64,000 nucleotides of DNA, taken from the NCBI RefSeq assembly GCF_013282215.1, contig NZ_CP048103.1, positions 3,224,001 through 3,288,000 of the forward strand, in the 5' to 3' direction. Position numbers and translations under genes: made by a program. Positions 9,624 to 11,287 of the stretch are shown piece by piece. The notes under the pieces are model-generated. The model ran no database searches, had not been told where the DNA came from, and saw nothing but the letters and a program-made list of their open reading frames with translations. The DNA is from Kroppenstedtia eburnea. Lineage in GTDB: Bacteria > Bacillota > Bacilli > Thermoactinomycetales > DSM-45169. How positions within the stretch are numbered: position 1 is the first letter of the stretch; every line of letters begins with the position of its first letter.

Positions 9624-9653
9624 GAAAAAAGATGCCGACGATGCCGGCATCTT
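9624..9653 (-). terminator. Terminator of the XRE-TPR/peptide operon
   Basis: Read on the minus strand: stem AAGATGCCG / CGGCATCTT followed by TTTTTT. It lies downstream of the exported-peptide gene and convergent to the membrane-protein gene. Confidence 0.75.
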
Positions 9654-9664
9654 GGAGGGATCCA

Positions 9665-9708
9665 TTGCAAGAGATGGCGAACCTCGTGAGGTTCGCCATC
9701 TCTTGCAA
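9665..9708. repeat. Perfect 20-bp inverted repeat
   Basis: TTGCAAGAGATGGCGAACCT and its exact complement are separated by CGTG. The stem is unusually long and perfect, without a T-run on either strand. It sits 45 bp past the peptide stop. It may be an RNA-stabilising 3' hairpin, a backup terminator, or a remnant of a small palindromic element. Confidence 0.6.
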
Positions 9709-9753: not shown

Positions 9754-9900
9754 TCAGCCACCCGCTGGATCATCCGTATTAGGTCTATTGTCTGCAACTG
9801 TATCACCGGTTGGGGCCTCCTCAACCACTCCATAGTAGGCGCCAACAGCAAGGATAAGACCACAAATGAATACCAGTACACCTTTTTTAATCCACTTCAT
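9754..9900 (-). CDS. Small exported peptide, candidate Phr-like signalling precursor
   Basis: 48 aa, too short for most gene callers. N-terminus MKWIKKGVLVFICGLILAVG is a classic basic plus hydrophobic export signal. The rest is a polar tail, VVEEAPTGDTVADNRP followed by NTDDPAGG. Its ATG overlaps the last codons of the XRE-TPR regulator by 14 bp and has GGGAGTG 8 nt upstream, so the two genes are translationally coupled. In RRNPP systems (Rap-Phr, PlcR-PapR, NprR-NprX, AimR-AimP) the TPR receptor is followed by exactly such a gene, whose processed C-terminus is re-imported. The role is inferred from architecture only. Confidence 0.7.
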   Translation of the reverse strand: MKWIKKGVLVFICGLILAVGAYYGVVEEAPTGDTVADNRPNTDDPAGG

Positions 9901-11215
9901 CGATAAACACTCCCTCGTTTTGTCTCAATTCCCCCTGTATCTTATACATATTATGCATGCATTTCTGAAATTCCTGCTCGTCAATGTTTTCCCACGAACT
10001 GGCGAGACCGTAGAGAGCCCGGTGCTCCCGTTTCTTCAGGTTGTGCTTTTTCGCCAGGCTGAGGGCTTCATTGAAGTACTCGATCGCTTCCCGTTTCTTT
10101 TCATGGGAGAGTAAAAGTTCCCCCATGGCTATATATGCGGAAGTTAAGCGTGGCACATCATTTTGCTCTTTTCCGATCCCGATGGCCTTCTCAAGGGATT
10201 GAGCAGCCTGATCGTATTGTTTTTTGAGTTTGTACAGGGTACCTAATCGGATATAGACTTTGCTAATACTCTTTTGATCATCCAGCTTGTCATTGCATCC
10301 GAGAGCGTTCATAAAGCACTCTTCCGCTTTTTCAAGCTCCCCTAGCCGCAAATATACGTTTCCAAGGACGATGGCGAGAGGAAAGATGGACGAAAACTTC
10401 CGGTTGATCCGGGCCAGTTCCAACCCCTCCACAGCATAGTGGGCGGCCTCATCATACAGTTCCAGACGATAGTTCAATTCCGAGCGCAGCCAGTAGAAGG
10501 TTAGTTTGGCGGTCACGCCCTCCATTCGGTCGATATCTTTCCAGTTCTCCTCCACCACTTTCATGGCGGCTGCAGTCCGGCCCAGCCGTTCCAGGTAGAT
10601 CCCTTTGTTCGCATGAAGCTGATGCCAGACGTATTGCCGCTCCCCCTCTTGTTGAAAGGCGTCGATCCCGCTCTCCGTGAACTTTAAGGCTCCATCCAGA
10701 TCATTCTGCAGGTACTGACACAGACCCAGCTCCAGAAAGCAGACGGCTTCTATATTGCTGGAGTCCGGGCGCTGGCTGGCCAATTGAATCCCTTTGTACA
10801 AGTTGCGTTCGGCCCGTTTCCAGTTGCGCAGACCCCGGTAACACTTCCCTTTCAGGAAGTACAGCGTGGGGGCCAGCGGGTGATCATCGCCGATCTCCAG
10901 GGAGTCCAGTTTCGCAATCGCACCCTGGATGTCGCCCATCTCCCGTTTCAGGTCCGCAGAATTCAGGTGGAACTGGTCTTCTTTGAACTTTTCCTTCTCC
11001 CCCAGGATCAGATCAGGGAGATCTTTCATTTCAATATTCAGCTTTTCGAGGAGGTAGACGGCACGTTGGGGATTCACATGGGGAACGCCGCGCTCAATAT
11101 TGCTGATCGTGGCCGGAGAGATGTTCTCATCGGCCAAATCCTCCAGCCTTAAACGCCTCTCCTTTCGCACCCTTCTGATTATTTCTCCGATCTCATGCAA
11201 TTCCAGTGAGTTCAT
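9887..11215 (-). CDS. XRE-TPR transcriptional regulator (RRNPP-like receptor)
   Basis: 442 aa. An N-terminal helix-turn-helix of the Cro/C1 family (about residues 8-62, IIRRVRKERRLRLEDLADEN ... ISPATISNIERG) is followed by about nine tetratricopeptide-like helical repeats to the C-terminus (for example LELGLCQYLQNDLDGALKF and AYIAMGELLLSHEKKREAIEYF). This is the domain order of PlcR, NprR and AimR, which bind short peptides in the TPR groove and change DNA binding. The gene overlaps a downstream exported-peptide gene. The start has GGTGGTG 8 nt upstream; a good promoter lies 45 bp before it. Target genes are not evident. Confidence 0.88.
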   Translation of the reverse strand: MNSLELHEIGEIIRRVRKERRLRLEDLADENISPATISNIERGVPHVNPQRAVYLLEKLNIEMKDLPDLILGEKEKFKEDQFHLNSADLKREMGDIQGAIAKLDSLEIGDDHPLAPTLYFLKGKCYRGLRNWKRAERNLYKGIQLASQRPDSSNIEAVCFLELGLCQYLQNDLDGALKFTESGIDAFQQEGERQYVWHQLHANKGIYLERLGRTAAAMKVVEENWKDIDRMEGVTAKLTFYWLRSELNYRLELYDEAAHYAVEGLELARINRKFSSIFPLAIVLGNVYLRLGELEKAEECFMNALGCNDKLDDQKSISKVYIRLGTLYKLKKQYDQAAQSLEKAIGIGKEQNDVPRLTSAYIAMGELLLSHEKKREAIEYFNEALSLAKKHNLKKREHRALYGLASSWENIDEQEFQKCMHNMYKIQGELRQNEGVFIDEVD

Positions 11216-11258: not shown

Positions 11259-11287
11259 ATCATACAATACACTCCCCAATTTCGCAA
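11259..11287 (-). promoter_or_regulatory. Sigma-A-type promoter of the XRE-TPR operon
   Basis: On the minus strand: -35 TTGCGA, 17-bp spacer, -10 TATGAT, about 45 bp upstream of the regulator start codon. Confidence 0.55.

Follow-up and report, generated by a model that had tools for sequence, protein, structure and literature searches.

Does a predicted transcription regulator of Kroppenstedtia eburnea form a peptide-signalling pair with the short reading frame that overlaps its 3' end? In the window (the whole stretch of 64,000 nucleotides analysed here), the gene of a 442-aa XRE-TPR regulator occupies positions 9887-11215 of the minus strand. Its Pfam HTH_3 and TPR matches, its AlphaFold2 model, and its match to NprR mark the product as a putative pheromone receptor. 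A 48-codon gene on the same strand (9754-9900), which has an orthologue in Kroppenstedtia guangzhouensis, is predicted to encode an exported pro-pheromone. The two genes have 14 bp in common, and the ATG of the peptide gene lies 11 nt ahead of the regulator stop codon; coordinates, strand, and overlap are as the initial annotation gave them. The ribosome site that it placed before this ATG is also found, as GAGGGAGTG, within the final codons of the regulator. The peptide, MKWIKKGVLVFICGLILAVGAYYGVVEEAPTGDTVADNRPNTDDPAGG, has a basic N-terminus, then a hydrophobic stretch, and then a polar tail, in agreement with the export-type start and polar tail claimed for it, as judged by a crude rule. 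By inspection, the basic start and hydrophobic stretch make up a signal-peptide-like N-terminus (~residues 1-22; 9835-9900, minus strand). The predicted mature core is the hexapeptide DDPAGG (9757-9774, minus strand), with its proline fourth from the C-terminus as in most family peptides (see below); we infer its exact ends. As set out below, the window pair very probably serves signalling between cells and is of the RRNPP(A) type.

A promoter before the pair and a terminator after it had also been proposed. The promoter-like (sigma-70-like) site TTGCGA-17-TATGAT (11259-11287, minus strand) is weak alone, the consensus scan that yields it being at chance level (3 found vs 2.8 expected), but the -10 element and the 17-nt spacing are present again in K. 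guangzhouensis (by eye). The intrinsic terminator (9625-9652, minus strand) is borne out by a hairpin at 9652-9630 with a six-U end, ~100 nt downstream of the pair. This hairpin is absent from the output of the consensus scan, which reports another stem (9751-9736) instead and whose terminator count is at chance (4 found vs 4.2 expected). A further near-perfect hairpin of ~19 bp (9665-9708, z -8.4) lies between the pair and the convergent neighbour. No second copy of it is present elsewhere in the genome, and K. guangzhouensis retains it with matching changes in both arms (by eye).

The regulator consists of an N-terminal helix-turn-helix (HTH; residues 10-66; 11018-11188, minus strand), which is strongly conserved among paralogs, and a TPR superhelix (~residues 72-431; 9923-11002, minus strand) that presumably forms the peptide-binding groove. 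This is the HTH-then-TPR order described initially, and both parts are matched by Pfam; members of the RRNPPA superfamily have the C-terminal TPR domain, whereas the HTH is optional. The AlphaFold2 model (441 residues, pLDDT 91.9, pTM 0.82) superposes on NprR without peptide (5dbk; Z 26.0, rmsd 5.5 over 347 residues), on NprR with peptide (Z 24.8), and on Rap proteins (Z 25.7 and lower), so that the structure prediction called for at the outset agrees with the proposed architecture. The eukaryotic TPR proteins LGN/Pins are the top fold matches (Z 27.7), equal to or above NprR; therefore, the fold alone does not show function. The profile match to NprR 5dbk has an E-value of 5.4e-12, with the best stretch at 238-407, but LGN equals NprR by Z, and the profile search of solved structures is headed by engineered and eukaryotic TPR proteins. 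No model of NCBIfam or PADLOC fits the regulator beyond its TPR/HTH stretches. The NCBIfam AimR model NF038310 stays below its cut-off (19.4 bits vs 70), and matches in PHROGs are restricted to the TPR/HTH stretches or to unnamed families.

The pair is retained in K. guangzhouensis, a member of the same genus, where it is syntenic together with its neighbours PAP2, GH1, and a 154-aa protein that has no Pfam match. The receptors of the two genomes are 96% identical (dN 0.019, dS 0.213). Between the peptide genes, 9 codon changes are non-synonymous and 2 are synonymous (dN 0.086, dS 0.207; dN/dS ~0.4), and the peptide C-termini are NTDDPAGG in the window and NTDDPAGA in K. guangzhouensis. The synonymous-site bias expected of a genuine peptide gene is thus present, but only modest, as would be expected if constraint is limited to a short tail.

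The receptor family is found in the genome of K. eburnea as 17 matching pieces, which are read as about 13 loci and one fragment. An overlapping or abutting peptide gene is present at eight of these loci, and a divergent upstream one at a ninth. Matches at 0.001 occur in 52 of 61 genomes (own included), comprising 42/42 genomes of the order; the remaining matches, in 10/19 genomes of the same class outside it, are weak (best 2.6e-9). At an E-value of 1e-12, 27 of 299 class genomes match, and all 27 are inside the order. When 299 genomes of the phylum are searched with a profile, the own genome is the sole strong match; the others give only partial matches (best 3.9e-23), which with one exception lie in the TPRs. 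No full-length match is found outside the order among the 299 class and 299 phylum genomes, and the receptor family may have a deeper kinship beyond it. The 73 named family loci presumably all bear Thermoactinomycetaceae names, apart from a few metagenome-assembled genomes, and a taxonomy look-up places Kroppenstedtia in the same family. Among viral contigs, 53 pattern matches include no relative, phage records contain no match, and plasmids give weak matches in 6 records, none covering 80%.

Regulator and peptide are conserved together across the order, as the initial annotation expected of relatives. We collected 147 distinct receptor 3' ends from the order, the stronger ones among the matches listed, and searched them for mini-ORFs that are signal-peptide-like by our own crude hydrophobicity rule. 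Among these, 82/147 receptor ends have such an ORF nearby, compared with 8/88 ends of other genes. With six ORFs dropped because their starts are over 30 nt away from the receptor stop, and L104 and L107 dropped as spurious by eye, 74 of the 147 ends, the window included, have an overlapping or abutting signal-peptide ORF; at the other 73 among the matches listed, no overlapping signal-peptide ORF is found. The peptide starts of the 74 pairs lie mostly at -11 (27) or -14 (25) relative to the receptor stop.

The C-termini of these peptides follow a simple code. All 74 have a proline among the final eight residues, and 65 have it exactly at -4, as in TDDPAGG of the window. The same DNA contains 573 other signal-like ORFs, of which 38 have a proline at -4; a few of these may be unfiltered family peptides. 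After thinning to receptors less than 60% identical, the proline is at -4 in 38/45. E or D precedes the last proline in 40/74. In addition, 11 of the 74 peptides repeat their own C-terminal hexapeptide internally (0.75 with shuffled linkers); examples are SEPGGL and GNPGEY, each in four copies, and AFPGP-type units present six and seven times. Since some of the 11 are related to each other, the independent repeat events are fewer than 11, and two of the cases are weak.

The C-terminal core is mostly better kept than the linker. Between receptors 0.75-0.90 identical (16 pairs), identity is 81% over the final six residues and 24% over the linker, and at 0.60-0.75 (38 pairs) the values are 43% and 9%; the linker identities are computed ungapped and hence understated. 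In the three pairs above 90%, tail (61%) and linker (53%) are about equal. Core similarity tracks receptor similarity (Mantel r 0.34, 0/2000 shuffles), also after thinning (r 0.215, 2/2000 shuffles). Core conservation and repeats point to a short C-terminal, or internally repeated, peptide as the mature signal, as in the RRNPPA superfamily. Co-conservation, kept core, repeats, and the superposition on NprR and Rap together support the RRNPP architecture originally proposed.

Several individual loci are worth recording. The orthologous peptides of L007 and L081 end NSDQPG and NSDQPGG, one terminal glycine apart. L026, L028, L031, L032, and L038 have the core S[EQ]PGGL in one to four copies and a common downstream gene, which is DapH_N by Pfam in L028; elsewhere, related receptors precede a dapH-like frame without a peptide ORF (by eye). 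L048 has EDPGMS three times in its pair, and its downstream gene has a Condensation domain, as in NRPS. A common downstream target gene was sought, and the contexts differ save for the dapH-linked group and single neighbours.

Other members of the family are accompanied by peptides of a second type, which lack an export signal. Separate leaderless ORFs, sometimes in two copies, occur near other receptors, for example MKRLFGGEPPAV, MTRLFGGEPPAV, MSRQVRLSDDPPGG, and MIRFHNDPPGS. They comprise ~10-31 residues, with a polar core that is mostly [DE]PPxx. Such ORFs lie 3' of the receptor at L230, L232, L233, L235, L236, L239, L242, L112, L123, L134, L255, L263, L267, L268, and L273; that of L268 contains ESDPPK three times. 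The leaderless set numbers 35 ORFs. A stricter pattern finds one at 24 of 186 receptor ends and at 2 of 364 control ends, the 24 including the doubtful L090 and L215 of the full set.

In a third arrangement, the pheromone-like sequence is part of the receptor itself. One receptor without a signal-peptide ORF ends SDPPGG, with a pheromone score of 11.3 compared with a median of 10.3 for pheromones; 8 of 200,000 random ends reach this level, and 145 receptor tails were examined. Kin of this receptor are present in 31/42 genomes of the order at 1e-80. Fourteen receptors (L228, L229, L230, L231, L232, L237, L238, L249, L258, L259, L260, L262, L264, and L267) have [DE]PP followed by two or three residues as their C-terminus. 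Each of the 14 contains an in-frame ATG 10-23 codons before the stop, after a ribosome-site match of at least 5, compared with 6/76 receptors of the signal-peptide class, 2/96 other receptors, and 11/279 control genes. At a match of at least 6, the counts are 12/14 compared with 1/76, 0/96, and 4/279, respectively. The peptide ORF is in frame inside the receptor 3' end, and the nested receptor therefore has a pheromone-like tail. The nested ribosome site is encoded by differing codons (RR, GG, GRG, and GRS), which suggests that the site is conserved as nucleotides. The smallest clade with all nested receptors (FastTree support 0.985) has 19 tips; as assigned by hand, these are the 14 nested receptors, 4 receptors accompanied by separate leaderless ORFs, and 1 for which none is found. 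The nested members include a Thermoflavimicrobium receptor ending SDPPGG. The nested peptide ORFs are probably genuine; they are well supported as sequence features, with a predicted pheromone function. Together with the separate leaderless ORFs, the nested clade points to a family with peptides of the Sec type as well as leaderless ones, in one clade of which a leaderless gene would have joined the receptor gene. A bolder and rather unlikely reading makes the nested tail a tethered ligand of a self-tuning quorum receptor, with internal initiation also freeing a leaderless peptide. No report of nested or receptor-fused pheromones was found in the literature by narrow multi-term searches, which could miss one, and searches by title and abstract found none on leaderless peptides of Thermoactinomycetales.

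The peptide classes correlate with one residue of the receptor. Asn203 (codon 10607-10609, minus strand) is a candidate peptide-backbone contact by its conservation and by a groove-facing orientation inferred from the TPR register; it is at TPR position 6, which we take to be usually groove-facing. In the non-redundant receptor set, Asn203 is present in 54/55 members whose partner is of the signal-peptide type, in 4/19 with a leaderless partner, and in 37/67 filed as partnerless, five of which are misfiled (L007, L123, L237, L260, and L268). Asn171 is present in 53/55 receptors with a signal-peptide-type partner. An Asn that contacts the peptide backbone is said to be common to RRNPP receptors in the part of the source consulted (PMC6458997). 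A general rule that peptide-less receptors lost Asn203 agreed with a two-class count but was dropped. Since leaderless-type receptors also mostly lack the residue, Asn203 marks the signal-peptide class only.

Three other explanations of the window pair have to be weighed against this evidence. The N-terminus alone fits a cleaved signal or a membrane anchor alike, and the 48-aa product might therefore be a membrane-resident small protein that regulates by contact rather than a secreted pheromone. However, conservation is mostly higher in the final six residues than in the linker, internal copies of the hexapeptide make little sense for an anchor, and related receptors are paired with leaderless peptides of like core. 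We consider this explanation improbable.

XRE proteins and short hydrophobic peptides are also known in toxin-antitoxin systems, and the regulator has a weak couple_hipB antitoxin match (23.8 bits vs a cut-off of 71.65), as if it were an XRE antitoxin beside a small hydrophobic peptide toxin. Against this stand the NCBIfam and PADLOC searches, which fit only TPR/HTH stretches, and the signal-like nature of the tail code, the repeats, and the co-variation. Moreover, two peptide genes of the own genome survive beside apparently broken receptors, which is hard to reconcile with a toxin; this explanation is very improbable. At the two loci concerned (L014/L011 and L012/L015/L016), an intact peptide ORF lies beside a receptor that is apparently frameshifted or broken, as if the signal had outlived its receiver.

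The least probable explanation is that coding constraint in the receptor 3' end has produced the short ORF as an artefact of the overlap, as its first 14 bp inside the regulator gene and the modest dN/dS of the peptide might suggest. Against it, most of the ORF extends past the regulator gene, mini-ORFs are far more frequent at family ends among the matches listed than at control ends, the proline at -4 is rare in other signal-like ORFs, and a peptide of the same code (KTEPGEG) is encoded divergently upstream of a receptor that has no downstream peptide. The gene of the latter peptide lies at ~1278-1420 on the minus strand of L008, and a site of the upstream motif described below is located between it and the receptor gene.

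In the preferred explanation, an RRNPP(A)-type module, the propeptide would be exported by Sec, and a protease would release the C-terminal hexa- to heptapeptide, approximately TDDPAGG. An oligopeptide permease would re-import the peptide, which would then occupy the TPR groove and alter DNA binding by the HTH. The genome encodes six SBP_bac_5 proteins that could take part in import.

The paralogs in the own genome appear to share a DNA reader. Among nine full-length paralogs, identity averages 71% for the HTH and 41% for the TPRs; ISPATISN[IV]ERGV is present in 9/9. These figures come from full-protein matches in the own genome; alignment A2 is set aside, since its loci were found via HTH patterns and its HTH conservation is biased. 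The TPR parts have diverged and the DNA-reading helix is nearly the same; therefore, the ~13 receptors probably represent a number of private channels, which would meet at similar operators, those of the receptor genes included. Upstream regions of 88 receptors have the motif TTtCCAatttnngtaAtntnntnT in common (log-likelihood 219 vs 81-89 in three shuffles), which sits 60-80 nt before the inferred start in most good cases. A strict form of the motif has 4 sites in the genome, 4/4 of them upstream of receptor genes, and the reversed control gives 0; when one mismatch is allowed at a fixed gap, the scan gives only 3 sites, all of them already known. TTtCCAatttnngtaAtntnntnT could act as an operator or as a promoter element such as a special -35 region. 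The upstream region of the window receptor has a motif score of only 6.5 and no clear copy, which disfavours simple autoregulation at this locus.

Among the known systems, NprR-NprX and Rap-Phr, whose receptors have nine TPRs, have the same TPR superhelix, NprR also has the HTH, and a small peptide gene adjoins the receptor in both. However, NprR and Rap are only 11-15% identical to the window receptor in structural alignments, and the window family has its own code centred on [DE]P. The Rap of phage phi105 (Rap105; Z 22.4 to the window model) is solved with ERPVGT, a hexapeptide that also has P at -4, and its propeptide is described as having two ERPVGT copies in the portion of the source consulted (PMC11343458). 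AimP of SPbeta is given as the hexapeptide GMPRGA, also with P at -4, in the part of the paper available to us (PMC6458997). According to the passages seen of another source, a 'DPG motif' is widespread in peptides of AimR and of RRNPP subfamily 08 (Paenibacillaceae) (PMC12700828); the [DE]PG core thus has a precedent. The window family differs from AimR-AimP in that it comes from bacterial genomes, with none in phage records or viral contigs.

In Paenibacillaceae, as far as the consulted sections of the source go, the Alo system (AloR-AloP) is a large paralogous expansion of HTH-TPR receptors with an ORF of 32-50 aa immediately downstream, in which the C-terminal hexapeptide SHGRGG is active and some receptors lack a peptide (PMC7425212). 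Paralogous expansion, downstream short ORF, and peptide-less receptors recur in the window family, but the AloP13 peptide has no proline; AloR is compared by description only, and at an E-value of 1e-12 the 299 class genomes contain no window-family member outside its order. The LCPs of the RopB clan are ultrasmall ORFs beside RopB-like receptors, mostly of 8-10 hydrophobic residues, with a ribosome site and no export signal, in the part of the source seen (PMC10518010). The leaderless ORFs near relatives of the window receptor likewise have a ribosome site and no export signal but are longer, have a polar core, and in 14 cases are nested in the receptor 3' end; the window peptide itself, with its leader-like start, is not of the LCP type.

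Such systems had been called little described in this lineage. In the sections consulted, RRNPP_detector (2023) lists 34 subfamilies of high confidence, of which 21 are new, and counts candidate RRNPP systems in four gene clusters of Thermoactinomycetaceae (PMC10075063); the statement is weakened by these four clusters, but our literature search found no experimental study of RRNPP systems in Thermoactinomycetaceae. The window pair thus appears to belong to the known RRNPP type, and the receptor-nested leaderless form is apparently new.

The family adds sequence-predictable peptide signals to Thermoactinomycetaceae, which are filamentous and spore-forming. With a simple code centred on [DE]P, mature signals would be readable from genomes and testable as synthetic peptides. 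Since a cell has several receptors with one DNA-reading helix, the number of private channels per regulon becomes testable. Finally, the Sec-type, leaderless, and receptor-nested relatives would form a natural series for the evolution of the pheromone export route, and would also bear on the idea of a receptor that comes with its own ligand.
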